From the IMG/VR virus record IMGVR_UViG_3300017963_000188, positions 248,001 to 312,000 of that record: a stretch of DNA of 64,000 nt; one strand, written 5' to 3'. Position numbers and translations under genes: made by a program. Below the pieces are notes generated by a model. The model was given only the letters and a program-made list of their open reading frames with translations. It was not told where the DNA came from and did no database searches. Each line of letters starts with the position of its first letter. Position 1 is the stretch's first letter. Shown piece by piece: positions 16,864-61,090 of the stretch. Origin of the DNA: a virus.

Positions 16864-16875
16864 TAGAGGTGATTC

Positions 16876-17082
16876 ATGAATGAACAGGAAGAGAACATTG
16901 CTGAAGAGGTAGAAGAACCAAAGAAGGAGCCTTTCAAGTGGAAGCATAACAATGACATTATGCAGAATATGGCTAGTAAGTTCATAGGTCCTTTGGGAAT
17001 GCTCAAAGATGCTTTGGTAGAGGAAAGAAACAAGCTAGTAAAGAATCGTAACGAATGCAGGAAGCGTAATTTAAATGGCTGA
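16876..17082 (+). CDS. Small charged protein of unknown function
   Basis: A 68-aa protein, acidic at the N-terminus (MNEQEENIAEEVEEPKKEPF) and basic at the C-terminus (ERNKLVKNRNECRKRN), probably mostly helical. It has a purine-rich AGAGGTGA site just upstream and overlaps the following gene by 8 bp, which supports translational coupling. No family is recognised. A small assembly or adaptor role among baseplate genes is possible, but nothing in the sequence shows it. Confidence 0.65.
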   Translation: MNEQEENIAEEVEEPKKEPFKWKHNNDIMQNMASKFIGPLGMLKDALVEERNKLVKNRNECRKRNLNG

Positions 17083-20835: not shown

Positions 20836-23800
20836 ATGGCTATAAGTGCTCCAGAGATATATTTACCAGATGGGTCAGAAACCTCGACCTATATTGTATT
20901 TTCTTCTAATGTGAGAGAGCATTTTTTTGAAGGTTTTGTTGATCCCAACACAATTGATGTTCAGGTGCAGATAAGAGGTGGTGGTTTTGTTTCTGATCCT
21001 ACTTTAGTCTATTTGGATCTTCCTAATTTTACAATCCCAAATCCTGCTAGTTATCCAGATGGTCTTTCTTTACTACCTGGTGAAAATCGTATTGATATTC
21101 GAGCTATTGATGTTGGTGGTAATACTAGTTCTGTGTCTTCAATTCTTGTCACGTATGTTACTGATAAAGAACTTTCTCTTCAAGTCACAGCTCCTACGGG
21201 TATCACTGTATTCCGACACAAAGATAAGGTCACATTAGCTACTACTCAGAACCCAGAATCAGAAGTGGTAGGGTATAACTTTTATGCTTCTAGGGAGAGT
21301 GGTGGTACTGTTACAGGTTATTTCAAACTTAATGATGAGTTAGTCACAGATAGTTATCTTGAGACTGAGGATGTAGATACTCATGATGAGGAAATTTCCT
21401 TCACACATGAAAATAATTTCCTCAGGATAACGGTGCAAGAAGAAGATGAAGATGGTGTCTTGGTACGAGAAATTTCAGATTCTGTTGTTGATATGGCAGA
21501 TGCTATTCCAGACCAGATTCTTTCTCTTGACCTCACTGGTAAGAAATCTGCCCAGCATTTCTATTTTGACCATGACCGGTTGGCTGAAGAAGCAGATGGC
21601 ACAATAAATAATGATCAGTTCCTCGATATCCCTGATGATCAACCTCTGTATTATGTTATTACGGCAGTTGGTTATGATTCGAGATATCGTGAGTATGTAG
21701 AGAGTAAGTATAGTTCTGAATTGGTAGGGTTACCTCTGATCATTGACACTACTATCAAGGATATGACCCCCAGGACAAGTCAGGACATTATCCTTTCTGA
21801 GATAGAGCAAATCCAGAAGCATGATCCTTCTGTTAGCTTGATACCTGGTTCATCTACTAGAGATATACACTTAGATCCACCTGCTACTGAGATAGAACGT
21901 GTGAGTTTCATAGCAGACTTCATTCATAGGTCACAGAGCTTCTTAACATTGATGGCTCTTGATGATGCTGATGGGGATGGTATCAGTGATGATGTGAGTG
22001 TCTCACCATATAAGAGAGCTTTGAAGAGTGCTCTTCTTTTGGATCGTGATGAGGATGTTCAGATCATCATTGATGATGCATTTGATAAAAAAGCTGGTGA
22101 CTATTACGTCACTAGACAAGGGGCTATTAGATCTATAGGACAGGCTGTTTTTTACCTTACCACTAAACCCACTAGAGACCTGGTGGTTGAACGTGGTGCT
22201 ATTATAGCAACTACTCCTGATGAGGAATTAGGTATCCCAGCTTTCTCATATGAAGTGACAAGTCAAGTCACTATGGCTATTGATAATGTAGATTCCTATT
22301 ATAATGCTTCAAGAAGACGCTGGGAAATTGTTGCTAATATCAGGGCTCTAGATTCAGGTTCAGATGGCAACCGTCCCGCTAACCAGATCAACAAGGTAGT
22401 ATCAGGAGCTTCTGGCTTCTCTGTGATCAACCTTGAGCCGACCCAATGGGGTTCTGATATTGAGAGTAATAGTTCTCTTGCAGAACGATCTATGTTAGCT
22501 CTTGTGTCTGTGGACTCTGGTACAACAGGTGGTTATTTGGCTACTGCTAACAAAACTCCTGGTGTGCAAGAGGCTTTGATAATCGAAGCTGACAATGATC
22601 TGATGATGCGTGATTGGGATGATGTTAGAGACAAGCATATTGGTGGCAAGGTTGATATTTGGATCAAAGGTCTAAATGAACAGGAAGTTACAGATACATT
22701 TGCATTCCTGTTTGATATAAAAGAGAATCAGGCTTTTGATATTATTGATGCTGTGAACCTTGTTTTCAGATCTACTGATAGCAATTTGTCTGAAGATAAT
22801 CCAATATCTGAAATGCTTGATGACCCTTCAAAAGGATGGGGTTTCAGAAATATCACTAAAGGGACTGACTTTGATTTGGCTGGAGTAACCATCCAGGATT
22901 ATAGAACCATCCAATTGGATAATGGTATCAGCCAACCAACATTCGATGTAGATGATGTGATTGTTGGTGATTATCGATTCCAGTCTACAAATACCTTCAC
23001 ACCGACTCGACAACCTGTGAGAAGAATTGTGAGTGTTGTGGGTGAGGTATCAGGGACTTTGGATGCTACAAATGGGTATGAATTGTATAAGTTAGATGAC
23101 CCTCTTCTTTATGGTGAGAGTACCAAGGCAAATGATTATGTTAAGGTTATCCCATATGGTGGACTTCCATCAGGTGCTGTTATTTCAGTGAATGATGAAT
23201 CTCATATCTTGGTTGGTACTAGACATGAGCCGTTAGATTCAATTGGTGTGGACATCACATCTATTCGGGTATTCAACGTAGCCAGAACTATTGAGTATGA
23301 TGGTCCTGAATCTTCGAGTCCAGATTATTTGATTTCACCAGGGTCTTCAACTGAGCCAACAACTATTGTGAGGGTGTCTTCTGGAACTATTGCTAATGGT
23401 CAGGAAGTAAGTGTTGACTATCAACATGACGAGAATTTTGAGGTTCGTTATGTAGTGAATGACCTGATTCGTCAGGTGCAAGAAAACATATCTGTGAAGA
23501 AACATACTACAGCAGATGCTTTGGTAAAACAGGCTATAGAGAATTCCATCAATATTGAAAACACAGTTATTCTTGAGTACGGTGTGGATCGACCACAAAC
23601 AGATTCAAAGATAAGAACCAGGGTTGCTCAAGAAATTAATAGTCGTCCAATTGGTGGTGGTATCAGGCAAAGTGATGTGATCCATGTTGAGGAGGCTGTT
23701 TCAGGAGTTGATTATGTGATCGTTCCATTTTCTCAAATGGTTTGGGCTGACGGTTCTCAGATTCTCAGGAATCCATTGCTGAGTAACTATGTAGAACTTT

Positions 23801-24264
23801 CTTCCCTGCATGCTGGTACAAATAAAGCTTATATTCTTATCACAGCTCTGAATGCATCAACAACAGATGGTGGTGGAGCAACTTCACGGCATAGAGGTGT
23901 TTTCCAAGATGATCAGCCAATGGAGTTGGTGACTACTTTAGCTAATGTGACAACTTCTCCCGATCAATCCTTTATAATTGGTAAGGATGGGGCTTCAATC
24001 ACAGGGTATTCAGACGATGCCACTCTTATCAGTGAAGGGTATACTGATGCAGATGAGATTGAGGAAGAAAGAAAGAACCGAACAGGTAATAGAGTGGTTG
24101 TTTCTTTGACCTCCATACCTGAAGATGACTTACCAACAGACCATACATACACTTGCTCATATGTTGTGAGTGGTGACTCTGGAGCAAGAGATTTGACAGC
24201 CAATAAGCTGGAATCTATTACGGTAGGTAACTTCAATATTATCTACAGTGAGGAATCATTATAA
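20836..24264 (+). CDS. Baseplate J-like protein (gp6/gp47-like)
   Basis: A 1142-aa protein. Residues about 290-700 fit the baseplate J family: TIKDMTPRTSQDIILSEIEQ, an ERVSFIADFIHRSQSFLTLM helix, ALDSGSDGNRPANQINKVVS, NSSLAERSMLALVSVDSGTT, then the GGYLATANKTPGVQEALIIE and GGKVDIWIKG strands. The N-terminus (about 1-280) carries Ig/FN3-like beta domains, and about 400 residues follow the J core; both are extensions compared with P2 gpJ. A D-rich DADGDGISDD motif (residues 377-386) suggests calcium binding. The protein should form the wedge ring with the gp25-like product. The gpI-like gene overlaps its stop. Confidence 0.85.
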   Translation: MAISAPEIYLPDGSETSTYIVFSSNVREHFFEGFVDPNTIDVQVQIRGGGFVSDPTLVYLDLPNFTIPNPASYPDGLSLLPGENRIDIRAIDVGGNTSSVSSILVTYVTDKELSLQVTAPTGITVFRHKDKVTLATTQNPESEVVGYNFYASRESGGTVTGYFKLNDELVTDSYLETEDVDTHDEEISFTHENNFLRITVQEEDEDGVLVREISDSVVDMADAIPDQILSLDLTGKKSAQHFYFDHDRLAEEADGTINNDQFLDIPDDQPLYYVITAVGYDSRYREYVESKYSSELVGLPLIIDTTIKDMTPRTSQDIILSEIEQIQKHDPSVSLIPGSSTRDIHLDPPATEIERVSFIADFIHRSQSFLTLMALDDADGDGISDDVSVSPYKRALKSALLLDRDEDVQIIIDDAFDKKAGDYYVTRQGAIRSIGQAVFYLTTKPTRDLVVERGAIIATTPDEELGIPAFSYEVTSQVTMAIDNVDSYYNASRRRWEIVANIRALDSGSDGNRPANQINKVVSGASGFSVINLEPTQWGSDIESNSSLAERSMLALVSVDSGTTGGYLATANKTPGVQEALIIEADNDLMMRDWDDVRDKHIGGKVDIWIKGLNEQEVTDTFAFLFDIKENQAFDIIDAVNLVFRSTDSNLSEDNPISEMLDDPSKGWGFRNITKGTDFDLAGVTIQDYRTIQLDNGISQPTFDVDDVIVGDYRFQSTNTFTPTRQPVRRIVSVVGEVSGTLDATNGYELYKLDDPLLYGESTKANDYVKVIPYGGLPSGAVISVNDESHILVGTRHEPLDSIGVDITSIRVFNVARTIEYDGPESSSPDYLISPGSSTEPTTIVRVSSGTIANGQEVSVDYQHDENFEVRYVVNDLIRQVQENISVKKHTTADALVKQAIENSINIENTVILEYGVDRPQTDSKIRTRVAQEINSRPIGGGIRQSDVIHVEEAVSGVDYVIVPFSQMVWADGSQILRNPLLSNYVELSSLHAGTNKAYILITALNASTTDGGGATSRHRGVFQDDQPMELVTTLANVTTSPDQSFIIGKDGASITGYSDDATLISEGYTDADEIEEERKNRTGNRVVVSLTSIPEDDLPTDHTYTCSYVVSGDSGARDLTANKLESITVGNFNIIYSEESL

Positions 24265-25064
24265 TGACAAATATGCTCCAAAGTCCATATCCATTGGTAG
24301 ATGATGGGAAGCAGTATCGTACCAGATTGAAAGCTGAGGCAGACCAGATTTTATCAAATCTGTTAGCTATGCTTCCTTCATATTACATGTCGGAGACTCC
24401 ATCTACAAATTATGCTTTGGAACTTCGAGCTTTTGCAATAGAGCTAGCGAAAATCAAAATTACATTGGATGACATTTCAACAGATGGTAATTTTATAAAT
24501 ACACGTTCAGAGTTTCTATATCAAATCATTGGGTACTTGATTTTCTTGAATGGTCAACTTCCCACTACTGAATTTAATGACCATGAATTCAAAGAGTTTC
24601 TATTAGCTATCATCAAGATCTATTTTCAAGGTTCTACCACTCAATCTATTCAAGATGGTATCCAGTTATTTACTGATCGTGTTGTGACTATTGTGGAGAA
24701 TTACTTAGAAGTGGAAGCTGGTGCTGAAGGATATGATATCAGTGACCAGTTCACGTTTGGTGTGAATTTTGAAATAGAGGGTGAAGAGATCCCTCAAGAC
24801 TTTGTGACTCTTGATGCAAATATTAACTTGATACTTAGGATCATAAAACCTGCACACACACTGTTTCGGATCAGATATATATTTTCTGATGATTTTGACA
24901 CTACAGATCCCGTTGATGGGGTCTCTGATGAGTATCGGTTTGAATTGAGCGATTATCATTATGATGATGTAAGGAAGAACTGGTTTGGTCTCAAAGATAA
25001 AGACCGACTAGGAGCAAAGGAAGAAGAGAGTGTGATTGGGGAAGATGTTTCGTACCAATTTTAA
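24264..25064 (+). CDS. gpI-like baseplate/fibre-attachment protein
   Basis: A 266-aa protein directly after baseplate J, with its ATG inside the J stop (TAATG). Residues about 25-130 are helical (LSNLLAMLPSYYMSETPSTN, then LELRAFAIELAKIKITLDDI), a pattern seen in gpI-type proteins that link fibres to the wedge. The middle contains TQSIQDGIQLFTDRVVTIVE, and about 190-215 the strand NLILRIIKPAHTLFRIRYIF, typical of the family end. Position after J and before the first long adhesin fits P2-like J-I-fibre order. The exact family is not certain. Confidence 0.65.
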   Translation: MTNMLQSPYPLVDDGKQYRTRLKAEADQILSNLLAMLPSYYMSETPSTNYALELRAFAIELAKIKITLDDISTDGNFINTRSEFLYQIIGYLIFLNGQLPTTEFNDHEFKEFLLAIIKIYFQGSTTQSIQDGIQLFTDRVVTIVENYLEVEAGAEGYDISDQFTFGVNFEIEGEEIPQDFVTLDANINLILRIIKPAHTLFRIRYIFSDDFDTTDPVDGVSDEYRFELSDYHYDDVRKNWFGLKDKDRLGAKEEESVIGEDVSYQF

Positions 25065-25074
25065 TGAGTGAGAT

Positions 25075-28000
25075 ATGACTACTTATGACACAACTGGGAA
25101 CCCTATTTTACCTGCTGGGGTAGAAGAATTTTTAGATGGGAACCCCTCTACTTTCATAGACCGATTCATTCGCACTAGGTTTGGACCTATTGTTAAGGGT
25201 GATGGCGAGGGGAAGATTGCAGATGATCCTTCAGATGTGACTGTCCTGGTGAATAGTACCCCAGCTACTGTAAAGGCTGTACTAGGTCTTATCGGTATTG
25301 TGGTTTTGGAGGATGCACCATTACCAACTGATACAGTAAAGATTTGGTATGATCATTTAAGTCGTCCACGAGTTGAGTTTAGGCGTTTGAATTCAGTTGA
25401 GTTTGTCTTAAATGCAGATGGTAATAGAGCTTGGGGTTATCAGCGATATCTTTATGAGAATGTGTTGATAGATCCTTCTATTGACAATCCTCTTGGTTTC
25501 CAAGGAGGTGCTGTAGGTACTGATCCAGAGCTTTTTGGATACTTCTATCGAGCCTATGAAAGAGCATATTCCATAGCTCTGAATGACCCAAATCTGTTGT
25601 TGTTGAATTCACCACACCATCGTATCGCATATCCTCCATTTTCGAGAGGTCTTTACGAGACTTTGGTGAGCTATGATGGTAATGTTCTTCCAGAGAATCA
25701 TGTCACTTATCCATGGGATTCTGCTGGTTCAGGGATATCTTCTGTAGATGGTCGTTTGACCATTGAAGATAACAGTAGTGGAGCTTTTCCCACAGGGAAA
25801 GGTTACTATTACTATCGTCCAGAAGACCTTTCATTTCAGTATACAATGTCGTTTTCATATCGTTCAAAAGTGACATCTTATACTTTGACAGGTTGTTTTT
25901 CAGGGGTGGCTTCTGGGTTCATTGATGGTAGGAATCTTTGTCTCATAGCATGTATAGAAGATTCTGGTACAAAATATATTGGCATACTGAAAAAAGGTGG
26001 CGATGAAACAATATTTTCATCTTATGAAAGTTATGAGTTGGATTGGAGTGAGTATCATATCTTCAGACTATATCGTACCATTGATCAGGTGCGTCTTTAT
26101 GTAGATGGTGGTGCTGCACCAATACTTACTGTTTCCACTTCTGACTTAGCTGATCCCAATGAATTAGAACTCCAGATTGACTTTATAACGGGAACATTTT
26201 TTGGGAGTATGAGCCGGAATTCAGTCAATGTTTCTGAATGGGATTATCTAAGATATCTGATTACTCCTATCTCTCCAAGTGAGTCGGCTCATTATGTTAA
26301 TGTCTTGTATGAGGCAAATTCTCTTCCTACTGAGGCAGGTTCACCTTGGTTTAAGATAGGGGCATTTGGAACTGAGAGATTACTTGGTATCGAAACTCTT
26401 TTGTTGAACAAGATATCAGCTTCTGAAGAGCCATATTCTTCTGAGGGAGGTTTAATTTCGGGGGAAGTGTTTGGGTATCATCGACCCGAACCATTCCTCT
26501 CATCTCAATCTGTGCTCGCTTTAGACTGGAAAGTGAGAGGGTATAGTTGGACTCATGGTGTTTCTGAGAGATCTCTAGGTGTATTTGCAAATGATTATGA
26601 TAGGCTATTAGCTATATCATTCTTCTCAGATGTTGAATTACCATTGTTATCATATAATGGGCAAGTTACTCCTGATACTGATCCAGAAACTCCTTGGACA
26701 CCAACTGGAACAGCTACAATTGAGGTGGTAGATAATATCCTCAATATAGATGATAGTTCTGATACTGGAGGTATCTTATATGGCAGAGAAGATGTAGCTA
26801 ATAATATTCTGGGGCATGATCAGAATTATATCTATGAATTCAGAGCAAAGGTAAATTCATATTCAGCAGATCCTTCTGGGTTTATAGGTGTCTTGACTGA
26901 AATTTTTGATGGTGTGCCTGGTACTGACTCTGGTCCTTTGATTGCTAGTCTCACAGATCTTCCTGTATCAGATAGTTTGACAGTTACAGGGCTGTTTAGT
27001 CCTGATGATGTAGATAAATATGTTACAGTCACCAATTCGACTCAAGGTAATAATGGTACTTATCAAATTGTAAGTTATATTTCAGCAGATCAGGTTCAGG
27101 TATCACCTTCATTCCCAGGTACAATTCCTGAGACAGGAACTGGTGTTCGAGCAAATATGTTAGGGGGGTATCCTGGTCGTAACATACAAGTGATGTTGAG
27201 AGAAGAAGGTGGTGGGACCAAGGTAATTTCATTCGCTTCTGAAGGCACTGTTTTATCTTCTATAGCTTTTACTTGGAACGATAGTGAATTTCATACCTAT
27301 CGAGTCATTGTCAATCAAGATAGTGACCTAGTAATGCTTATGGTTGACGGTCTTTCAAAGGGAACATTGGCCTATACTTCTTTCACTGAGAGTGCTGGTG
27401 ATACTGCTTATTTTGAGTTTGGATCTTCTGGTCCTTCATCTGATGAGTCCATTTCTAATGTTGATTGGGATTATTTCAATTCATATCCCATAAGAAGTTC
27501 GAGTAATGAATATGTTGGTATTTACAAGGGTGGTGATGTCACCGATATAGATAATTATGAGAAAGTATCTGTAGATTTCTCTTCTTATCATGAATATAGA
27601 GTAGTCAGAGATCCTAATGGCTCAGTTAGTCTTTTCATTGATGGGGCTTTAGCTATTTCATTTTCTTATCTGGATTTGCCGGATGCTTATGGCACATTCT
27701 TTGATATTGAAGGTGGGGCTGGATCTGGGGTGTATTGGGGTTCTTTTGACGAGTCAGCTCTTGTTTTAAGTGAGTGGGATTATCTCAGATTCACTATTGC
27801 TGGTGCTAAGGGATTTGATGTCATAGCACCTCACCATGAAATCTTGAATCAACAGAATGTCATTGCAAGTCCAGATCATATTTATGGTGATGTGGCAGAT
27901 CATAGCCATACCAATTTCTTGTCTTCTTCTACTGGTATCCCCACTCCTATAGAAGATTATTATGATAAAAAAGAAGTGATTGATGCTTACACTCAGTTGA

Positions 28001-30051
28001 ATCAAGACACACCTCCTGTGCCATTGACAGAAGAGGCGTTTCTTACAAAAGTTGAGTCTTTTATTGTAGTTCTTAATGACCCATTGTTTGTACTTAATGA
28101 CTTTAAGTTCTTAATCAATGATGCTTCTAAATCAGTTGAACTGCAAGTCAACGAACGAGGGCTTTACAATGCTCTTGATCTTAGGTCAAAGACTACAGGA
28201 AATATTGACGACCATATCTACCCAGCTTTTGACAAGGGTTTGGGAGAGATGGAAATTGATTTCACTGGCACTCTTTGTTTTGAGTATGATGGTACTGTTG
28301 TACCTGAAGATACAGTTTATCCAAGTGGAGTTCCAGATTGGGGGTTAGAAGGGACTAGTGACTACCAATCATATGCTTCTGATGGTAAATTGACATTTTC
28401 AAGTTGGGGTTCTGGAACAAAGAGTTACGTAAATTACAACCCTATATTTGGAGCTAGGTTCCCAGTTGACCTTGAATTTTCATTAAAGGTTACACAAGAT
28501 ATTTCTTCTGGAGCTGGGGACACTCTGATTAGATTTGAGCTGCGAAACGATGTGTTTCCGATTCGATTTGGTTTGGCAACATCTCCATTAGGAGAGAAAC
28601 TTGTAAAACTGTTTAGTGTGTCTCTTCCAAGTGAAGAGGAATCTATCATCGGTAATATTAGTTTCAATTGGGATGATGGTAGTGCTCATATCTTCAAACT
28701 TCACATTAATCCTTATTATGAAATGATAAAGATCTTTATTGATAATGGTGAAAGATCTTATATGGACATACCATTTTCAAGGCTAGAAGAGTTCCCATCA
28801 AGCATTACAGACACTACTTCTTTGAGATTTACACCAAAAGTAGATGTTGCAAATCTGAATCTTTCAGAAATTGAGATTGACTATATCAATTTCTGTGTGG
28901 CTAGAAATGATAGTTATGAAATACCAGTTCCTATAGATCCACGATTCTTTTATCTCAATGCCTATGATGATTTCACATATTCAGGTGGTTCTGGATATAC
29001 TGTCTTGGCTAAGAGTCTCATGAATTCTACTGATTCAATTATGTACCCAGGTTCTAAATTCAGTGAGGCTTTTCCATCGACTAGTATTGATGGTCAGATA
29101 GAAGAGATTTATGATGCTATTGATGACTTTGTGGTTCAAGATGAAGTCGTTTTGACATATCCCTTTGGTGGCAACCGTATGAATGACCCAGATAGCACTA
29201 TGGAATTAGATATGGTTACTGGGTTCTTGTTGAATGATGCTACACCAGGGTATTCTGAATATCCTCTTGTTTTAAATCCTTTGATTGATGATGTTTGGTT
29301 TGATTCTATAACAATTGATGGATCTGGTTTGATATATGGTTCTCCCAATGGTGATCATGGGACTCATAGTGTAATCATCACTGGAGATGGGGCTCGGACC
29401 TTGACTGGCCCAGATATCATATCTGGTGGTGGTACATGGACAGACACTCAGATTTACATACCAAATTCATTGGTTCCAGGGATTAATATTGGATCTACTG
29501 ATGTGAAAGTTATCATTGGTAGTTATGAGAGTAATGTTGAAGTATTGAAATCAAGGATTGTTCCCGCTGCTGATCCAACTTCAGATGTCTCCAGTGGATC
29601 GTATGACTCAGCTCAAAGTGTCACCTTATCAACTACAACTCCTGGAGTAGATATTTGGTACACTCTTGATGGTAGTGATCCTGTTCCTACTACCAATGGT
29701 ATTCAATACACAACACCTATTGATTTGCCTGGTGACTATAACCCAGGTGAAAGTTACGTCTTAAAGGCTATCACAGCGGGTGATGGTGTTGATTATTCTG
29801 ATAGTAATATCGTTACTTGGAATATTGATATCCTTCTCCCTGAATATGTGGAATTCAGTGCTTCATATAATGACACTGGAGGTGAGCTAGAATCCTTTGA
29901 AGAAACAGCAGATGATACTGGTGATGCTTGGTATTGTCCTTATCTACGGATTCCTGGACTATATACCAGCGATGACCCGCCTGGAGCTTGGGATTTTGCT
30001 ACAGTGACTCAGGGTGATGTTGAAGACTTTGAGACTGGTTGGAGTTTGTAA
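25075..30051 (+). CDS. 1658-aa multi-domain adhesin with lectin-like domains
   Basis: First protein of the fibre region. After a conserved-looking N-terminal head (about 1-190) it contains concanavalin/LamG-like units at residues 194-399, 516-806, 809-909 (second half of a unit only) and 1062-1282. Each ends with a pattern such as Y-H-x-[FY]-R...V-x-L-[FY]-[IV]-D-G followed by S-x-W-D-Y-L/F. Unit two is interrupted at about 619-697 by a family S beta domain. Residues about 1402-1495 look IPT/TIG-like. Residues 1496-1583 fit the chitobiase/hexosaminidase C-terminal pattern (VSSGSYDSAQSVTLSTTTPG then IWYTLDGSDP). A role in binding surface glycans is inferred. It starts at ATG 25075, 10 bases after the gpI-like stop. 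Confidence 0.75.
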   Translation: MTTYDTTGNPILPAGVEEFLDGNPSTFIDRFIRTRFGPIVKGDGEGKIADDPSDVTVLVNSTPATVKAVLGLIGIVVLEDAPLPTDTVKIWYDHLSRPRVEFRRLNSVEFVLNADGNRAWGYQRYLYENVLIDPSIDNPLGFQGGAVGTDPELFGYFYRAYERAYSIALNDPNLLLLNSPHHRIAYPPFSRGLYETLVSYDGNVLPENHVTYPWDSAGSGISSVDGRLTIEDNSSGAFPTGKGYYYYRPEDLSFQYTMSFSYRSKVTSYTLTGCFSGVASGFIDGRNLCLIACIEDSGTKYIGILKKGGDETIFSSYESYELDWSEYHIFRLYRTIDQVRLYVDGGAAPILTVSTSDLADPNELELQIDFITGTFFGSMSRNSVNVSEWDYLRYLITPISPSESAHYVNVLYEANSLPTEAGSPWFKIGAFGTERLLGIETLLLNKISASEEPYSSEGGLISGEVFGYHRPEPFLSSQSVLALDWKVRGYSWTHGVSERSLGVFANDYDRLLAISFFSDVELPLLSYNGQVTPDTDPETPWTPTGTATIEVVDNILNIDDSSDTGGILYGREDVANNILGHDQNYIYEFRAKVNSYSADPSGFIGVLTEIFDGVPGTDSGPLIASLTDLPVSDSLTVTGLFSPDDVDKYVTVTNSTQGNNGTYQIVSYISADQVQVSPSFPGTIPETGTGVRANMLGGYPGRNIQVMLREEGGGTKVISFASEGTVLSSIAFTWNDSEFHTYRVIVNQDSDLVMLMVDGLSKGTLAYTSFTESAGDTAYFEFGSSGPSSDESISNVDWDYFNSYPIRSSSNEYVGIYKGGDVTDIDNYEKVSVDFSSYHEYRVVRDPNGSVSLFIDGALAISFSYLDLPDAYGTFFDIEGGAGSGVYWGSFDESALVLSEWDYLRFTIAGAKGFDVIAPHHEILNQQNVIASPDHIYGDVADHSHTNFLSSSTGIPTPIEDYYDKKEVIDAYTQLNQDTPPVPLTEEAFLTKVESFIVVLNDPLFVLNDFKFLINDASKSVELQVNERGLYNALDLRSKTTGNIDDHIYPAFDKGLGEMEIDFTGTLCFEYDGTVVPEDTVYPSGVPDWGLEGTSDYQSYASDGKLTFSSWGSGTKSYVNYNPIFGARFPVDLEFSLKVTQDISSGAGDTLIRFELRNDVFPIRFGLATSPLGEKLVKLFSVSLPSEEESIIGNISFNWDDGSAHIFKLHINPYYEMIKIFIDNGERSYMDIPFSRLEEFPSSITDTTSLRFTPKVDVANLNLSEIEIDYINFCVARNDSYEIPVPIDPRFFYLNAYDDFTYSGGSGYTVLAKSLMNSTDSIMYPGSKFSEAFPSTSIDGQIEEIYDAIDDFVVQDEVVLTYPFGGNRMNDPDSTMELDMVTGFLLNDATPGYSEYPLVLNPLIDDVWFDSITIDGSGLIYGSPNGDHGTHSVIITGDGARTLTGPDIISGGGTWTDTQIYIPNSLVPGINIGSTDVKVIIGSYESNVEVLKSRIVPAADPTSDVSSGSYDSAQSVTLSTTTPGVDIWYTLDGSDPVPTTNGIQYTTPIDLPGDYNPGESYVLKAITAGDGVDYSDSNIVTWNIDILLPEYVEFSASYNDTGGELESFEETADDTGDAWYCPYLRIPGLYTSDDPPGAWDFATVTQGDVEDFETGWSL
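26930..27165 (+). repeat. Family S beta domain nested in a lectin-like unit
   Basis: Encodes LTVTGLFSPDDVDKYVTVTN, then QGNNGTYQIVSYISADQVQV and SPSFPGTIPETG. It lies inside the second LamG-like unit of the 1658-aa protein. The flanking sequence, from FIGVLTEIFDG to GRNIQVMLREEGG, would be a continuous strand pair in the uninterrupted units. Confidence 0.65.
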
Positions 30052-30052
30052 T

Positions 30053-30820
30053 ATGGCAAAGGCAGATTGGTCTCATTTTTGGACCCCCGGATTTATAGGT
30101 ACTGGTTCTCAAAACTATACTTTTGCAGGTAGAACCAATCTTATAGCACCTGGAGCAGGGTCTTCTAATATAGCTTTTTCAACTGGTAAAGGAGCCTCCC
30201 CAGCAATAGCTGGTTTTCTATATGATGGACCTACAATATCAAAATTCCCAGTTCAGGATGGTATTATCAGTTTTGCTGTCCGTAATGGTGAAAGTGACTA
30301 TATAGTAGGTACAAGCATTATTGGTGGATTGTGTAGATTCCAAGGTCTTTATTCTGGGCAATACTCTGGGACAGATCAAGTGTTGGGGTATATTGTTGGA
30401 ACCAAAATGGCTCAGACTGTCTTCCGTAGCACAACAGCAACAGCAATTTACAAGCTAGTTGGTAGCTCGTCGGCAACACTTGTTGCCGATGCTTTAGCTG
30501 TTTCTACCATTGATGATGGTACTACATATTACATCCAAACAGAGTTTGCATTGAAAAATAATGGGGGTAATGTTGAATTTTACCAACGAAATAATAATAC
30601 AAATACAGGTGTTTTAGGTCCAGAGGATGCTGGATGGTCGTCTTGGAATTTGGTTGCTACTGACACTTCTCCAGGAGCGTTGATAAATCCTGGTTATTGG
30701 GGTTTTGGAGTGTATATGCATACTGGATCAATGACTAGTAGCTCTCGGAATTTTGATAATATCAGGTTTGATGATGTTAGAATAAAGATTGATAATTTAG
30801 GTGATATTGGTGGAGATTAA
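30053..30820 (+). CDS. Lectin-like tail protein (short fibre subunit)
   Basis: A 255-aa protein starting MAKADWSHFWTPGF at ATG 30053, one base after the preceding stop. An in-frame ATG at 30014 lies inside the previous gene and is rejected. The sequence is beta-rich and low in charge. It ends with GYWGFGVYMHTGSMTSSSRN and FDNIRFDDVRIKI, a jelly-roll/LamG-like closing strand. It is a paralogue of the next protein: both have a D-W-x-x-x/W-V opening, an AGW..W strand (GPEDAGWSSW against EPGSAGWEVW) and the F-D-x-V-R-I-x end. A receptor or glycan-binding role is inferred. Confidence 0.65.
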   Translation: MAKADWSHFWTPGFIGTGSQNYTFAGRTNLIAPGAGSSNIAFSTGKGASPAIAGFLYDGPTISKFPVQDGIISFAVRNGESDYIVGTSIIGGLCRFQGLYSGQYSGTDQVLGYIVGTKMAQTVFRSTTATAIYKLVGSSSATLVADALAVSTIDDGTTYYIQTEFALKNNGGNVEFYQRNNNTNTGVLGPEDAGWSSWNLVATDTSPGALINPGYWGFGVYMHTGSMTSSSRNFDNIRFDDVRIKIDNLGDIGGD

Positions 30821-30825
30821 TAGCA

Positions 30826-31602
30826 ATGTCTCAAAGTGATTGGATATGGGTAGCTTGTGAACCAAGCGGTACTTTTGAGCAAAGTATTGTTGCAAGTAGT
30901 CCTCCTAACTATAGTGGTGGGACAGATTATGGTGCTAATACATTAAGATTCCATGCTGACTTGGCTTCTGCAAGTGCTAATCAATTTTATGGTTATCGTT
31001 ATAATGGGTCTGAAAGTGGTAGACATCATATAGCTCTTTGTGATTTTGCTGTCCGAAAAGAAGGTTTGATGGGTCAGCATGTGTTTCCTGGGTTTTTAAT
31101 CACATATGAGGCTCTATCTGGTAGTGTGGCTCGTGCTGATGTAAAAGGTATTTGGGCAGGTTTGGGGTATTCAGGTAGTGATAATAGATGGATGATGGAT
31201 ATCATTGACAATTGTTATCCATCATCTACATCAATAGCTTGGACAGAACGGTGGGCTTACAATTCAACTGATAATGGTTGGTTTCAAGGGCAGTTTTTGT
31301 TCAGTGCCCATCCAAATGCTTATGGTAAGGTTGGTGGAATACAAGTATTGTTTCGGTATAATGATGCTGCTGGTGGCCCAATCACAGAGCCTGGTAGTGC
31401 AGGTTGGGAAGTGTGGAGAAGATTTGGGTATATTGATTTCTCTCTTTCTAATTTCAGTTCGTTCTATGATTCAGTAGCAAATCTATTGAATAGTGGGTTT
31501 TATGTGTATTTTGGTGCAATTCGTTATGGCTCATATAGCAATACTGGGAGTCATTACATCCAATTTGATCGAGTTCGTATACAATTCCCTTCATTCTCTT
31601 AA
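30826..31602 (+). CDS. Lectin-like tail protein, paralogue of the previous gene
   Basis: A 258-aa beta-rich protein starting MSQSDWIWVACEPSGTFEQS. It resembles the preceding 255-aa protein along its length: an early SDW motif, HIALCDFAVRKEG (against ISFAVRNGE), EPGSAGWEVWRRFGYID, and a final HYIQFDRVRIQFPSF strand. It is rich in Trp, Tyr and Phe (14 Trp or more by eye), typical of carbohydrate-binding jelly rolls. Five bases separate it from the previous stop. Tandem duplication of the gene pair is inferred. Alternating or hetero-oligomeric short fibres are possible. Confidence 0.65.
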   Translation: MSQSDWIWVACEPSGTFEQSIVASSPPNYSGGTDYGANTLRFHADLASASANQFYGYRYNGSESGRHHIALCDFAVRKEGLMGQHVFPGFLITYEALSGSVARADVKGIWAGLGYSGSDNRWMMDIIDNCYPSSTSIAWTERWAYNSTDNGWFQGQFLFSAHPNAYGKVGGIQVLFRYNDAAGGPITEPGSAGWEVWRRFGYIDFSLSNFSSFYDSVANLLNSGFYVYFGAIRYGSYSNTGSHYIQFDRVRIQFPSFS

Positions 31603-31611
31603 AGGTACGTC

Positions 31612-32169
31612 ATGGAAGCAAAGCAGTTATATAATGGTGAGTGGATTAATTTGGTGAGTTGGAACAACTATGAGTTTGTCGATGAAGCTTCAATCGTGTT
31701 AGTTGTTCTGATCCGTAAGGATTCAGAAGAAGTTTTATATGGGATTCGAGAAGAGTATTGCCCACCATATTTCTATGATTCAGAATCTCCTGACAGTGCA
31801 ACAGAAGAACTTTACTATACCCTCATCACTGGAGGTATCGAAGAAGGAGAGGATGCAGAGGATGCTCTTTATAGAGAAATTGAAGAAGAGGCTGGTATCC
31901 AAATTGTACCTGGACAATCTCAGATAATTGCTCTGAGTGGTTCTATTCCAATGGTGAAATTTGCTTCCACACAAGTCTATCCTTTTGTAGTAAATCTAGA
32001 ACCAGGATCTTTCAAGGTTGTAGAAGCTATTGGTGATGGTACAGAAAATGAAAAGAAGAGCAAAACTTCATGGGTCACTGCTGAGGAAGTAAATCACATC
32101 ATAGAAGAAGGTAGAAATTTTGATTTTTTCTTTCTTTTTTTGAAATATCTTATAGAATATCCAAGATGA
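31612..32169 (+). CDS. Nudix hydrolase
   Basis: A 185-aa protein with a full Nudix box, G-x5-E-x7-R-E-U-x-E-E-x-G-U, at residues 74-96: G74, E80, R88, E89, E92, E93 and G95, with Ile at 90 and 96. The fold order is right, with an opening strand (ASIVLVVLIRKDSEEVLYGI) before the box and a substrate-side strand (FASTQVYPFVVNL) after it. Nudix enzymes cleave nucleoside diphosphates linked to another group; the substrate here (NTP, NAD-type cofactor, capped RNA or sugar nucleotide) cannot be read from the sequence. It lies among fibre genes, is preceded by AGGTACGTC, and is probably co-transcribed with them, which is an odd place for a soluble enzyme. Confidence 0.9.
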   Translation: MEAKQLYNGEWINLVSWNNYEFVDEASIVLVVLIRKDSEEVLYGIREEYCPPYFYDSESPDSATEELYYTLITGGIEEGEDAEDALYREIEEEAGIQIVPGQSQIIALSGSIPMVKFASTQVYPFVVNLEPGSFKVVEAIGDGTENEKKSKTSWVTAEEVNHIIEEGRNFDFFFLFLKYLIEYPR

Positions 32170-32193
32170 TGCTTCATTGATCTTTTTGTATAT

Positions 32194-32199
32194 AGGGGA
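32194..32199 (+). promoter_or_regulatory. Ribosome binding site fixing the start at 32207
   Basis: AGGGGA lies 7 bases before ATG 32207. A TTG at 32177 is in frame but lacks a site, so the shorter protein is preferred. Confidence 0.7.
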
Positions 32200-32206
32200 T
32201 ACTGAT

Positions 32207-32866
32207 ATGATCGTAAGAGAATTTTATAGAGGACCAATCGAGGGTGCAAAAATGAGACTTCAAACCAATGACCAGACTAATGGCCCCACAGGAGATTTCT
32301 GGGGGTTTATGGGTCCTGATTTAGGAGCTGATGCTTCTTTAAAGAATTTTCTAGAAAGTCCTGACCATAAGTTGGTATACGAGAAGAGGAATCTTATTGT
32401 CAAAGACATGTCAATTCTTTTGGCTCGTTTGGTGAAGGACAATCAGGAACCACCTCAGGGAGCCTATGTCCTTGCTGTAGGGACTGGAGATACTGGTTGG
32501 GACCCTATGAACCCCCCAGCAGCTACAGATGAGCAAAGGGCTCTAGAAAATGAGATTGAACGTAAGACATTTGCTGACACTCAATTCATTGATTCTGGTG
32601 GTTCTCCAGTAGCGTATCCAACAAAAATTGTAGACTTTATCACTACATTTTCAGAATCAGAAGCTGTAGGACCTCTGGTAGAAATGGGTCTTCTTGGTGG
32701 GAACATTTCGACTAACTTGTCTATCAAGAATCCTGTTCCTGCTGGAGCTTATGATGATACTGTTGACCTGACTAGCTACGAAACCATGTTAAATTATTTA
32801 ACATTTCCGGTAATAAACAAACCTGCGACAGCTACGTTGACTTGGGTTTGGAGGCTTACTTTTTAA
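32207..32866 (+). CDS. Conserved-type tail protein, unknown function
   Basis: A 219-aa protein starting MIVREFYRGPIEGAKMRLQT. The middle has AYVLAVGTGDTGWDPMNPPA, a charged helix (DEQRALENEIERKTFADTQF), then FITTFSESEAVGPLVEMGLL and a C-terminal YLTFPVINKPATATLTWVWR strand. The ordering of a GTG-x-GW-D motif, a helix, an EAVGPLVEMGL motif and a Phe-Pro-x-x-x-K-P end recalls a family common in tail clusters of large phages; this is from memory and is not a database result. It lies between the Nudix gene and the 858-aa protein. A structural adaptor role is inferred. Confidence 0.65.
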   Translation: MIVREFYRGPIEGAKMRLQTNDQTNGPTGDFWGFMGPDLGADASLKNFLESPDHKLVYEKRNLIVKDMSILLARLVKDNQEPPQGAYVLAVGTGDTGWDPMNPPAATDEQRALENEIERKTFADTQFIDSGGSPVAYPTKIVDFITTFSESEAVGPLVEMGLLGGNISTNLSIKNPVPAGAYDDTVDLTSYETMLNYLTFPVINKPATATLTWVWRLTF

Positions 32867-32878
32867 TAAGGATGCGTC

Positions 32879-35455
32879 ATGGATAAGAATTTTGATGGTT
32901 CTGTTTCGGGTTATCTAGATCCTGAAGAAAGAGCCTGGGAAACAATAGTTTACCAAAGCTCAAAGCCAATCTTGGATGTGGAGCAAAACTTACTTCAAGA
33001 TGCAAATTTTGAAGCTGCTCTTCGTAGGGTATCAGTTCCCAGTGGTTGGTTAAAGGGTGATTTCCTTGGTGGGAATATTGATTTTGAATACAGTAGCTCT
33101 ACAGCTAATGAATTCAAGTTGGTCAATAAACCAGTAGCTTTGGTGAATGGTTGGAAAGTAGTTGTCGAGTATACTGGCACTGATACAGCAAAAGAAAATA
33201 TACTTTCATTGTCAGCACCTCCAGCTACAGGTTGGAGAACAGACTTCGTGTTTTTAGAGGTCTGGAGGGCTTTGTTGAGTGCTAGTCCAGACACAACCAA
33301 TAAATCTGCTGGTGGTCGTGTCTATAGACATGGTAATGTAGGTATTGATCCAGCTCATGACGCTACTTTGAACTTTACAGATGATATTTTGCAGACTCCT
33401 CCTGGAGCTGAAACTTCTAAGAGAGTTCAGATTCAATATCGAATCAGAGTTGTAGATGGGATCAATATTAGTAGTTTCCCAATGGGTATGAACGATCCAA
33501 ATGTTGAGGCTCAGGGCACACAAGGATCTCCTGTAGGCACCTATACTTTTACTAACATGGGAGCTACTGCTGGTGATTATGGTCTATGGAGAGCCGGTGC
33601 TGGTGATACAGCGTCTCAGACAGCTCTTGGGACTGTGGATGGGTATAGTTATGCTATCCCCATTGCTGCTGTGTTTAGACGGAATACAACTGCTTTCTCA
33701 CAGTCTACTAATCATAATGGTGGTGTCCTGATAAGTGCTGGTACAAGTGACCGTCCAGATGATTTGTTTTCTGATGAGATTTCAAATGGTGATGTCCTTG
33801 ATATGAGACAGGGTACATCTCTTGTGGGTTGGGACCTTGATGAAATCTTGGAAACAAGCTTTTCAGCTTTGCTTGATAATACTTTATCTCAGGTAGAACA
33901 GAACACTAATAGTGTTCCTGGTTACACCTATGGGATGGTAGGGACTACTGTTCTACATGCTGATGAGATTGGTCCTGCTGGTACAGGTGGTTTGGGAGGT
34001 ATGAATATAGGGGAGCAGGATGCTGTCAGAAGGCGTTTCTCTGATAGAGCTATAGTAGAGCATCCCATAGTCATAAAAACCCCTACAGGAGCAACCTGGG
34101 TGAGTGACGAGGTTGTTACAATCAATCTTGGTAACTTCAATCCATATCCATTTGATGAGGGTTCAGGGTTTGACCTTGCATCAATGAGCCCTGCAAATAC
34201 GGTCATTACCGATATTCGATCTGCCTATTTTGATCATCCAAATACAACTACTGGTAAGGTCAAGGCATTTTTCAGTGAGATAAAGGGTATTGGTTCAAAT
34301 ATTGTCACATTGACTCTTGCGGATGGGGTGTGGACAGGTAATAGTCCTGATCTATGGCTCGAAGTTGAAATATCCTACCCACCTGGGAATGGTTTGACTG
34401 CAACTCCATCCAATGATTTTGGAGATACTTGGAATTCTGGTGCAGGTGGACCATTTACTTTGGAAGATGACCCCGCTGGTAGTCGTCCCGCTGACTTCAA
34501 TGACTTTGTAAATCTTGAAGTGGTGAAAAATAACCGTGAAGTTCAGGTTTTGTATGAGACAACAGATAAGACACTAGATGTATATGCTAAGGATGTGAAC
34601 ACTATAGTCCTTCCAGATCGTGTTGGTTCTGTGACAAGTGTAACAGAAGATCCATTGGGCACACCTGTTGGTCATTCATTTACTTTTACAGCAAATGATC
34701 CAGATAGGGAGATTTCAACATCTGTTGATCCACTTTCAGATCCAGATGCTTTAGTCAGAGTGGTCTATAAAGCTCTTAGACCTATTCCAAATACAGTAGG
34801 GTACTATCAAACAGTTTTTTATCAATCCAGAGCATTACAGCCTGTGAAAGATAGTATGCTGCCGAATAGTTTATTGTATCGTACCTTGTATGTGAGCCCA
34901 TATATATACGCTTTGACTGGTGGGACGGGATCATTTGGAGCTACTTATCCATATGAAGTTCCTCATGTCCACATCCCTGTATATATCAATGGAGCAGCTC
35001 CATATGTATTCAATGGGGAACATGAATTAGACTCTCCTCTTGACACCTTTACTGATGACTTTGATGCTGCTTCGGGATTTTTAAGAGTTTCTCAGAATAT
35101 ACCTCTTGTTCCGATGGCTTCAGCAGAATTACAACGGACTGCTGTGACTGATGTTGATCCTGAACAACGGGCTTTTTACCCAGAAGTACCAACATCAGAA
35201 TATCGACCCGCAGCATTTGGTAAGAACCTTTCTTTCCCACAGCGGCATAAAGTGTTCTTTCCAATTATAGCAGAACTTTTAGATGACTATGATTTCGGTA
35301 ACAAAGGCACATTGGTAATGATTGTCTTTATCCGATGGGCTGAAAATGACAATGAGAACAATGTCAGATTCGTAGATACTCCTGCTGATGATACTAGTTG
35401 TGCTGCTGTTTACCGACTCAAGGGGAATCTGTTACTGAATAGACGGAGTGTCTAA
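32879..35455 (+). CDS. Structural fibre/baseplate protein, paralogue of the 1334-aa protein
   Basis: An 858-aa protein. Its N-terminal 330 residues are a clear paralogue of the 1334-aa protein at the far end of the fibre region. Shared blocks include FDGSVSGYLDPEERAWETIV against FGSGVSRTLEAKDRQYSTVV, then RTDFVFLEVWRA, RVQIQYRIRVV, YGLWRAGAGD and DGYSYAIPIAAVFRRN. The rest is beta-rich. A DTTADDTSCAAVYR-type end follows a strand with KVFFPIIAELLDDYDFGNKG. It starts at ATG 32879 after TAAGGATGCGTC, a usual site here, and its stop overlaps the next ATG (TAATG). The role is inferred as a fibre-collar or fibre-scaffold protein. Confidence 0.7.
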   Translation: MDKNFDGSVSGYLDPEERAWETIVYQSSKPILDVEQNLLQDANFEAALRRVSVPSGWLKGDFLGGNIDFEYSSSTANEFKLVNKPVALVNGWKVVVEYTGTDTAKENILSLSAPPATGWRTDFVFLEVWRALLSASPDTTNKSAGGRVYRHGNVGIDPAHDATLNFTDDILQTPPGAETSKRVQIQYRIRVVDGINISSFPMGMNDPNVEAQGTQGSPVGTYTFTNMGATAGDYGLWRAGAGDTASQTALGTVDGYSYAIPIAAVFRRNTTAFSQSTNHNGGVLISAGTSDRPDDLFSDEISNGDVLDMRQGTSLVGWDLDEILETSFSALLDNTLSQVEQNTNSVPGYTYGMVGTTVLHADEIGPAGTGGLGGMNIGEQDAVRRRFSDRAIVEHPIVIKTPTGATWVSDEVVTINLGNFNPYPFDEGSGFDLASMSPANTVITDIRSAYFDHPNTTTGKVKAFFSEIKGIGSNIVTLTLADGVWTGNSPDLWLEVEISYPPGNGLTATPSNDFGDTWNSGAGGPFTLEDDPAGSRPADFNDFVNLEVVKNNREVQVLYETTDKTLDVYAKDVNTIVLPDRVGSVTSVTEDPLGTPVGHSFTFTANDPDREISTSVDPLSDPDALVRVVYKALRPIPNTVGYYQTVFYQSRALQPVKDSMLPNSLLYRTLYVSPYIYALTGGTGSFGATYPYEVPHVHIPVYINGAAPYVFNGEHELDSPLDTFTDDFDAASGFLRVSQNIPLVPMASAELQRTAVTDVDPEQRAFYPEVPTSEYRPAAFGKNLSFPQRHKVFFPIIAELLDDYDFGNKGTLVMIVFIRWAENDNENNVRFVDTPADDTSCAAVYRLKGNLLLNRRSV

Positions 35456-38400
35456 TGCCGACTAAAGTAGACCCAGGCACATTAGCCATTGGGAATGGTA
35501 AAGCAGCACAGGATTCTGTGTCTGTATCTTCCCTTGACTTTGCTCATGTAGTGGATTTCCAGGCTGCTCTATCAGGGCATCTCAATGATCCAATAGGTGC
35601 TCATCCAGCCACAGCTATTTCAACTCAGGATACCTATGGTAAATTCGATTGGACCCATGTCGAAGGGTCTTTGAATGAATTATCAGATCTCATGCCAGAT
35701 CTGATCAATACTTTGGGACAAGAGCAAGAGGGAGTCCCAAATAGTGGTGTGCCTTATTGGGGTACATTGGAAGATACTTACGATAGAATTGGAACCACTC
35801 AATCAGGTGGTTTTACTTGTACTACAGCAAATCATGCTCATGCTTCATGGAGTGGTGGGAATCAGGGGGGTACTCCTGGTAATTGGTTAGTAGAGACTCA
35901 TTGTTTACTTCAAAGTTCTATCACTACCTTTGATCTTTCTGGTATTTTGTACCCTGCTGACAGAGGGTATTTAGTATTGCTATATGCAAAGAATGGTGTC
36001 TTTGATAATACTGTGAATACAATTGAAGTTGGGGAACTTGATCTAGAAGCTAATTTCAGTGAGTCTTATAGACGTGTTCCCAATTATCAACAACCTAATT
36101 ATGTGGGTGTAGATACACATGATTCTGGGCCTGATATTTTCACACTAACATATCGACTCCCAGCTCTTAAGGAGTACAGTGCAGGAACACCTTATGAGCC
36201 ATATGATTTCAATTATCTGCAATTTCAGTTGGCTTATTTCAGTGTATCTATTGATCTCACATTATCACCATTCAATATTGGGGTTGATGTAGATTTTGGT
36301 TCTTTGAAACTGTTTCATTTCAAGACCTACAGTAATGTTGCTACAGCAGACTATAGTGCTTCAAATCTGTATGGGTCTCATGGTAAGTATGATATCTATA
36401 GTGAAGTCGATCCTGGACTGCCTGTTATTGGGACTCCTGGGACTGATTATATAGTTGAACCTACTTTTCCAGTTGGTACTGAAACACCTCCTGGTGGTAG
36501 TTATAACTGCGATTTGGCATCTCCAAATGATTTCACAAGTGCTTCAGCAGTCTTTGCAGGAGATGCTACTGATAGAGGGAAGATACTTACAGTCACAGGA
36601 TCAGTGAATGGTAACAATGGGGACTACCAAATATTAGTCGAAGATACGACTACTCATGTCAAGGTATATCCTGATTTTCCGGGGTCTCTTCCAGAAACCA
36701 CATTGAATTTTAGTATTTCTGCTCCAAATATTTTCAGATTGTCTGGTATATATCACTATGGTTCTGATAATGGATTTTGGTTGAAGTCAAGTATTGCAGG
36801 AGCAGTTTCTGGACTATGGAATCTCTCATATCTTACTGGGGTAGAATCAGATAGTAAGGTTTCTTCTGGATATCTTAGTGATAAATCTCCTTTGAAATAT
36901 GACCTTACAGATTTTGGTGCTGGGACTAGAGAAATCCCATATCATTTGTTAGATAATAATGATGCTATCAATCCTACTGATGGGTGGGATTTGAGTAAGG
37001 GAAATGGTCCAGGGCAGAGTGATGATGCAGAATACATAGGGGTTCTCATCAGCGGATCATCAGGTGGTGGTGTGAGTGACGATGCAAAAGTAAAAAATAC
37101 AATACGCACACCTTTTGCTTTGACAGAACTCGATGCAATCACTCAAACTGGTAATAAAATTCTGACAAATGCTTATGAACAGATTATAACTGGTAGATCA
37201 CAGATCGAAGATTTCACTACAGAGTTATTCAGGTATCATTTTGATGTGGCTCAAGATGAAAACACAGATTTGTTTGAACATGAGAGATACCCTTTAGTTC
37301 CTTATACTAGAGCTACTCCCAATATTGGTAATGATGGGGTGGTTTCTTCTACCAACACACTTACTTCTGCTACTGCAAATTTCACCAGTGGTGATACTGG
37401 GCGCACAATATTGATTTCTAGTGTGAAACTTTATTGGTCTGATAGTACAGCAAACAAAATACAAAGGTCCAACATTGATGGTTCGAGTGTTGAGGATGTT
37501 GTCACTGGTATTGGAGATGCTGCTGGTTTAGCACTCGATATTAATGGTGGGAAAATATATTGGGCCAATGCAACGGATCAGAAAGTACAACGAGCTAATT
37601 TTGATGGTTCAAGCATTGAAGATTTGGTGACTGGTCTTGGCACTAAGGTGTTTGCTGTTGCTTTAGATTTAGCTGTTGGGAAAATGTACTGGGCAGATTC
37701 GGATGCTGATAAAATACAACGATCTAATTTAGATGGGTCTGATGTTGAAGATGTTGTTTTAACGGGGGTAGGTAATCTTCAAAGCCTCGCTTTAAATCAC
37801 AATCTCCAAAAAGTATACTGGTCTGATCAAGGGACTTCAAAAATACAACGAGCCAATTTTGATGGTTCTGATGTTGAAGATGTTATCACAGGTGCTTCAG
37901 GTCCTAATAATATTGCTTTTGATTATACTGAAGGGAAGATGTACTGGACTGAGACAGCAGGTAACTCTATACGGAAAGCGAATTTTGATGGTTCAAGTGC
38001 AGTAAATGTCCTTACAGGATTGTCATGGCCAAGAGGTATGGCAATAAATGTTGAAGAAAGGAAGATTTATTGGTTTGACGGGAGCACCAACAATTTAAGG
38101 CAAACAGATTTCGATGGTAGCTACCTTTTGACTTTGAATTCAGGGATTTCGAATATGCCTCATATAGCATATTATGATAATCCTGTGTACGATGGTAGTT
38201 ACAAAGCTACATATGTTAGTTCTACTCAAATTACAGTGGAACCTGATTGGCCTACTCATATAGAAACTTCTGTGTCTTGGTACTTCCCAACAGTCTGGGA
38301 TTCTGATCTTGCTTTAGGATCACATATCCAGAACGAGCTTCAAGTTTTGGATGGTAAACTTGTTTACCCACAGACTAATTTCACTGCTGGGTATTACCCT

Positions 38401-39597: not shown

Positions 39598-39609
39598 TGA
39601 GGTATTTCG

Positions 39610-60991: not shown

Positions 60992-61090
60992 TCTTTGTAA
61001 CAAAAATAAATCATGGTAAAGTATCGTTACTTACTTCGGAGGGGGTATTAGTCTACTGATCTGATTAAAACCCTCCAGACAGGATTGGAT
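60992..61090 (+). other. Module-boundary intergenic region
   Basis: The longest intergenic gap of the window (99 bp), between the last envelope gene and the helicase gene. It contains TTGTAA (60995) and TAAAGT (61017) 16 bases apart, a weak sigma-70-like pair, and an inverted repeat GGAGGG/CCCTCC (61038-61043 and 61071-61076) with a 27-base loop. There is no T-run and so no clear terminator. It may hold a promoter for the replication module. Confidence 0.4.

Follow-up and report, generated by a model that had tools for sequence, protein, structure and literature searches.

Why does a Nudix hydrolase gene lie among the fibre genes of a large phage, and does its place there tell what the enzyme does? 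The gene, putatively of the ADP-ribose/NDP-sugar pyrophosphatase type, occupies 31612..32169 on the forward strand of a 64,000-nucleotide stretch (the window) of a 358,038-base virus record, starts with ATG and encodes a protein of 185 aa. The Nudix box has the consensus GX5EX7REUXEEXGU and, with the U positions read off the translation, a pattern scan found an exact fit at G74-I96 (codons of residues 74-96 at 31831..31899, forward strand). The protein also matches the Pfam NUDIX family PF00293 (E=3.6e-9, 37.2 bits). Since this score is above the curated cut-off of 21.1, the box is no chance box, and the complete box reported in the initial annotation is confirmed. No second PF00293 match was found in the virus record at E<=1. 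Against NCBIfam the protein gave 19 rows at E<=1, all far under cut-off and mostly box-sized.

A likely ribosome binding site, AAAGG (31601..31605, forward strand), lies 6 nt 5' of the ATG and overlaps the stop codon of the upstream gene; the spacing between the two genes is 9 nt. The start context is similar to that of the gene at 32879 (AAGGATGCGTCATG), in agreement with the earlier remark that the ribosome binding site is of the same type as those of the neighbours. With a GC content of 36.9%, the Nudix gene is within the range of the other window genes, as it is in codon usage. A terminator-like pattern at 31919 falls inside the gene; there are four such patterns against a shuffled mean of 2.1 (sd 1.6), which is near the shuffled count.

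The predicted model of the protein (pLDDT 93.8, pTM 0.87) was compared with solved structures. VIA-align listed 50 entries, every one of them a Nudix protein, and nearly all of their titles name an ADP-ribose pyrophosphatase, an NDP-sugar or GDP-mannose hydrolase, NUDT5 or NUDT14. The best matches are the NDP-sugar hydrolase 5c7q_B (Z 17.9, rmsd 1.9, 159 aligned residues), the GDP-mannose hydrolase YffH, 3o61_D (Z 17.8, rmsd 2.3, 167 aligned), and the Thermus thermophilus ADP-ribose pyrophosphatase 3x0o (Z 17.5, rmsd 2.2, 154 aligned), followed by NUDT5 and NUDT14. The structural matches span model residues 1 to 185, N-terminal strands included. The top rows of Foldseek were the T. thermophilus ADP-ribose pyrophosphatase (1v8m, E=2.9e-11), and the best PDB match of a profile made from a 41-row alignment of the family was NUDT5 (E=9.4e-9), aligned through GDGEFVE, the late-loop glutamate of which we take to be catalytic. 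This profile alignment places the GDGxxxE loop of the window protein at residues 141-147 (32032..32052, forward strand). Fold and profile together point to a Nudix fold of the ADP-ribose/NDP-sugar pyrophosphatase branch, so that the functions offered earlier, namely clearing of nucleotides, removal of RNA caps and action on sugar nucleotides or NAD, can be narrowed to this branch. Judged from sequence and model, the gene most likely encodes an active ADP-sugar-type pyrophosphatase.

Within the branch, the structural matches to NDP-sugar, GDP-mannose and ADP-ribose hydrolases lie within 1 Z of each other, and the fold, as predicted, cannot separate ADP-ribose from other NDP-X substrates. ADP-ribose pyrophosphatases are marked by a proline about 15-16 residues past the Nudix box; P113 lies 17 residues past I96 and this position is a proline in 8 of the 41 rows, that is, it is not conserved. 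The T. thermophilus enzymes of the 1v8/3x0 series and NUDT5 share with the window protein the whole-length fold with its N-terminal strands and the Nudix box, and NUDT5 the GDGxxxE loop as well, but identity in the structural alignments is about 15-25%, and R46-x-E48-x-x-P51 together with K116 is specific to the window family as compared with these enzymes. Bdellovibrio 5c7q and Escherichia coli YffH (3o61) share the fold at an identity of 12-13%. T4 NudE, whose annotated activity covers FAD, diadenosine polyphosphates, ADP-ribose and NADH, has 151 aa as against 185, and hhalign aligned it over 59 columns from the box onward (probability 94.3).

These comparisons bear on a housekeeping role, in which the enzyme would sanitise damaged nucleotides as MutT does, cleave diadenosine polyphosphates or remove RNA 5' ends. 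Matches to MutT, RppH and Ap4A hydrolases were indeed obtained, the lupin Ap4A hydrolase being aligned also at a second stretch over the GDG, and one family member lies between genes for a DnaB-like helicase and a ribonucleotide reductase (RNR). However, most of the MutT, RppH and Ap4A matches cover little beyond the box, the NCBIfam scores are those far below cut-off, the structural matches that run over the full length are to enzymes of the ADP-ribose type, and the RNR large subunit of the window phage itself is encoded about 75 kb away. We therefore consider a housekeeping role highly improbable.

In a first viral scan for relatives of the protein, one locus (L003, 35% identity) was found besides the same virus, and tblastn added two records of metagenomic phages, one of 634 kb (31%) and one of 642 kb (27%). 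An alignment-based scan then gave 61 viral loci, the nearest of which outside the same virus is 42% identical. The 41-row alignment consists of the window protein and 40 of these loci; left outside it are L069 (the same virus) and L120-L126, the near copies L071-L073, L088, L097, L098, L101, L111 and L115, and the other Nudix or partial loci L118, L119, L127 and L128. R46, E48, P51, G74, R88, E89, E92, E93, G95, D142 and G143 are invariant in all 41 rows, K116 and E147 are found in 40 (the remaining row has D in place of E147) and G141 in 36. In the tree, the window protein belongs to a supported clade of nine (98/96), in which the nearest row is L070 by a weakly supported join (86/62). Another 25 rows, many of them on large contigs of up to 508 kb, are grouped together (99/99) and have recurring neighbours of their own, including what appears by eye to be a ligase-like protein.

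On contigs of cellular genomes at least 43 loci were matched at 21-71% identity, often over short stretches. The family profile, whose source rows include the window and L003 genes, gave at most 43 bits among the cellular matches listed versus 183-275 bits for the window protein, L003, L004 and L005, and no family match was found in plasmids. As far as the matches listed go, then, the family is seen here only in viral records. The nudix hydrolase families phrog_1198 and phrog_19657 match 39 and 36 of the 41 aligned members, respectively, at E<=0.001, but they match the window protein only in part (68-160 and 27-97), at E values of 7e-8 or worse; because of this, no PHROG looks built from the window Nudix family. 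As a separate observation, phrog_15528, which is called a portal protein, matches five of the 41 members (best E 0.00022), and the window protein aligns weakly with its positions 548-623 (E 0.087); these phrog_15528 matches are possibly portal proteins that bear a Nudix domain.

The Nudix gene is embedded in a run of forward-strand genes of baseplate and fibre type, and in this respect the earlier description of a gene among structural proteins was correct. Of the 33 ORFs called in the window, 32 are on the forward strand; the sole reverse one (130 aa at 16752, overlapping larger genes) is probably spurious. All genes of the run named here are on the forward strand. Upstream there is a sheath-initiator-like protein (PF10934, 26.7 bits, under the cut-off of 32.9), followed by a baseplate wedge protein (20836..24264, phrog_6 E=3.3e-21), which is the left landmark of a conserved gene order, a conserved 266 aa protein (24264..25064), which is beside the baseplate gene in relatives too, and a fibre-like protein of 1658 aa with CHB_HEX_C_1/Fn3_assoc matches (25075..30051). 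The last of these forms the left edge of a slot of variable content. Besides the Nudix gene, the slot holds genes for a 268 aa protein (30014..30820, for which ATG 30053 may be the true start) and a 258 aa protein (30826..31602; predicted model pLDDT 33.5). Neither has a family match in PHROGs or Pfam; their products are 23% identical over 136 aa (E=0.001), and their position and this mutual similarity weakly suggest fibre genes. The right edge of the slot is a phrog_5417 protein (32177..32866), a relative of Bacillus phage G gp190. The ORF tool started it at TTG 32177, but ATG 32207, preceded by AGGGGA, is the likelier start. A protein of 858 aa (32879..35455), conserved in relatives, lies downstream of the slot. 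Among the phages encoding relatives of the baseplate and phrog_5417 proteins are Bacillus phage G, Tunturiibacter phage Tunturi_5 and a metagenomic phage of 485 kb.

Is the address of the Nudix gene conserved? We searched 32 loci (563,054 bases in total; 25 found via the baseplate protein and seven via the phrog_5417 protein) with profiles in six frames. The gene order of wedge protein, 266 aa protein, long fibre protein, variable slot, phrog_5417 protein and 858 aa protein is found again in relatives with baseplate proteins that are 35-49% identical. Both slot edges are held by nine relative loci, namely L007, L008, L016 and L032-L037; the left edge is weak in L034, and L007 and L008 have the same gene set and are probably one virus. 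None of these nine carries a Nudix gene in the equivalent slot by the six-frame profile search, and the PF00293 matches present in their records are all outside it. Of the other loci, 21 of the 32 stop before the right edge or never reach the slot. The Nudix gene was found in L006 and L031 only, which are one contig matching the window at 99.995% over 20,555 bases; two further rows of the slot search (E 1.3 and 6.3) were treated as noise. A conserved synteny of the Nudix gene with the fibre operon is thus rejected.

The initial annotation had named, as what would refute its reading, that the gene be found only as a sporadic recent insertion lacking a conserved location. Much of this holds, since the gene is sporadic, being absent from all nine relative slots. 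A recent arrival, however, is not supported, because codon usage and GC are like those of the neighbours and the best identity outside the same virus is 42%. The lineage carrying a Nudix gene in the fibre slot may be thinly sampled. Taken as it stands, the address in the fibre cluster looks incidental. We also considered whether the Nudix gene travels together with genes 30014 and 30826 and dropped the idea, as searches with the latter two gave only the same virus and a weak partial relative (L179). In L010 and L012, the homologue of the 266 aa protein is followed by several reverse-strand ORFs (at about 14720-18300) instead of the fibre gene; therefore the region varies in other phages too.

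Where, then, do other members of the family sit? Their neighbours were scanned in part with family models at L003/L075, L070, L074, L076, L077, L079, L109, L110, L112, L114 and L117. In L070 the order is prohead protease (PF03420 E=4.2e-21), DUF5661 protein, Nudix protein with a tail that looks coiled-coil-like by eye, 222 aa protein and major head protein (phrog_138 E=2.1e-58). This position is presumably comparable to that of the scaffold gene of T4, and L070:7929-9158 is a candidate Nudix-scaffold fusion. The Nudix gene is downstream of the portal gene in L075 (on a contig shared with L003) and L076, and, by gene cluster, in L079; head-protease-like matches in these three are weak. It is directly 3' of a head maturation protease gene in L112 (phrog_18299 E=1.9e-14) and one gene ahead of terminase and portal in L109, where a sigma-factor-like gene lies on the other side. 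Elsewhere the setting differs: the helicase-RNR member mentioned above is L074, L129 lies with replication or nucleotide genes by shared neighbour clusters, and L077 is near a peptide deformylase gene, as L078 is by shared clusters. In L110 a tail-fibre-like gene (phrog_7049 E=9.6e-13) lies upstream of the Nudix gene. Two of the head modules hold further enzymes beside the Nudix gene: a protein of 1265 aa bearing a Fic/Doc domain (L076:9054-12851) and a papain-family protease together with a HAD-type phosphatase (L079:7162-10815). A suspicion, raised by eye, that the L114 fusion protein ends in an ADP-ribosyltransferase was dropped, as it was unsupported by Pfam or by sequence search of solved structures.

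It had been assumed that phage Nudix genes usually sit with nucleotide-metabolism genes. Some members of this family do lie with replication or RNR genes, as L074 does, but as a rule the statement does not hold: T4 nudE is near the lysozyme gene e and the internal head protein genes ipIII and ipII, and the accessible text of PMC9503650 places T4-like NudE in late clusters or in fusions with head proteins. The same text proposes that many phage Nudix, Macro and NADAR proteins are packaged, so that virion-associated phage Nudix proteins are, to that extent, already in print. Similar points about jumbo phages and about multidomain proteins that are injected are raised in the accessible parts of PMC7824862 and PMC5512222.

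A rival explanation, in line with the packaging proposed in PMC9503650, is a virion cargo. The enzyme would be packaged in head or tail, delivered with the DNA, and would act from the start of infection on NAD-derived immune signals. Six relatives lie by head or packaging genes (L070, L075, L076, L079, L109 and L112), and the nearest row in the tree, L070, is the head-module fusion. The window copy, however, is unfused to any structural protein and stands outside the head module among neighbours of the baseplate or fibre type, its join with L070 is the weakly supported one, the clade members L074 and L077 are located elsewhere, and the other neighbour of L109 is sigma-factor-like. As far as the sequence goes, packaging of the window enzyme is possible, and we regard the cargo explanation as a whole as unlikely.

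A functional tie to the fibres would be given if the enzyme hydrolysed NDP-sugars and so, late in infection, reduced the sugar nucleotides and thinned the surface glycans of the host, so that released progeny are not trapped. That the gene lies amid adhesin-type genes and that 5c7q and 3o61 top the structural list would fit this explanation, as would the place of the Nudix gene in L110 after the tail-fibre-like gene, with a gene for an HD_4 domain protein (L110:5595-7895) between the two. On the other hand, the two structural rows tie with ADP-ribose pyrophosphatase, relatives of the same gene order do without the Nudix gene, and L110 alone has a tail-fibre match among the 11 loci whose neighbours were partly scanned. 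This makes the explanation very unlikely.

We hold it somewhat more probable than its negation that the gene is an accessory one in a variable fibre slot, encoding a working ADP-ribose/NDP-sugar Nudix enzyme that clears or recycles ADP-ribose-type products late in infection. Computation gives its presence, position, fold family and conserved active site, and activity, substrate, timing and role are proposed from these as follows. The protein would form a dimer with swapped N-terminal strands, as expected from solved relatives. E89, E92 and E93 of the Nudix box would hold Mg2+, R46 and K116 would grip the diphosphate, and E147 on the GDGxxxE loop would aid catalysis. The substrate, either ADP-ribose or some similar NDP-X (an ADP-ribose conjugate or an NDP-sugar, for instance), would be split into nucleoside monophosphate and sugar phosphate. 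The gene may have settled as an accessory gene in the variable fibre slot of one phage lineage. From its neighbours only, we infer late expression; if the gene is read from the transcript of the fibre genes, large amounts of the enzyme would be present late in infection, when it could clear ADP-ribose-type products arising from an NAD-based defence of the host or salvage them as AMP.

The virus record also encodes a Macro protein (G000 121833-122162, E=2.6e-15) and a NADAR protein (G000 150713-151117, E=4.3e-32), both outside the window and 128-158 kb distant from the Nudix gene. The accessible text of PMC9503650 groups Macro, NADAR and Nudix as ADP-ribose-targeting and considers that the phage versions counter ADP-ribose-derived signals. 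At E<=0.001, NADAR was matched in 8 of the 12 other records that carry the family versus 5 of 14 baseplate relatives that lack it, and above the Pfam cut-off in 7 of 12 versus 4 of 14, a comparison confounded by kinship. Macro occurs in one of these 26 records, and that one is without the Nudix family. Co-occurrence of the three therefore lends weak support to a role in ADP-ribose handling. NAPRTase, the NadV-type enzyme of NAD salvage, was not found in the virus record at E<=0.1. According to the accessible part of the preprint PMC13232231, phage proteins convert cyclic ADP-ribose signals into linear ADP-ribose. In our reading, a Nudix enzyme of this type could cut the latter next. The same source describes phages that rebuild NAD from ADP-ribose (NARP1), so that a phage does not in every case profit from destroying ADP-ribose. 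In the accessible text of PMC9503650 the words baseplate, fibre and fiber are absent, and among the papers found on Nudix together with Thoeris, or together with phage tail fibres and virions, no title or abstract opening describes a Nudix gene in a fibre operon.

A wider reading would make this a phage family of ADP-ribose-pyrophosphatase shape, apart from T4 NudE, that has repeatedly moved into virion modules (the scaffold-like coiled-coil fusion, the places beside portal, terminase and protease, and the fibre slot) and that, assembled with the particle or carried in it, acts upon arrival to destroy immune signals or products of the linear ADP-ribose type. We think this quite unlikely. If the family is delivered with the virion, a sequence-distinct enzyme of ADP-ribose-pyrophosphatase shape joins the phage side of the NAD/ADP-ribose arms race. 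If it is not, the locus warns against reading a structural or fibre-linked role from the location of a gene in a structural operon, since cargo can gather in variable slots among fibre genes. Judged from sequence and model, the protein is most likely an ordinary enzyme with a mildly interesting address, handling ADP-ribose-type nucleotides either late or at entry.

The genes beyond the slot show some features of their own. The N-terminal 294 aa of the 858 aa protein are 39% identical to the N terminus of the product of 55380-59384. The downstream adhesin-like proteins are 1.2-1.6 kaa long and related in pairs, and the one at 35455, the single protein scanned, has LDL-receptor class B repeats (PF00058 E=1.2e-41). 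Two adjoining adhesin-like proteins of about 1380 aa (35455-43773) are 48% identical along their length, a probable fibre duplication. Shortly past the structural run there is a gene for a SNF2-family helicase (61085-62710, PF00176 E=2e-33).
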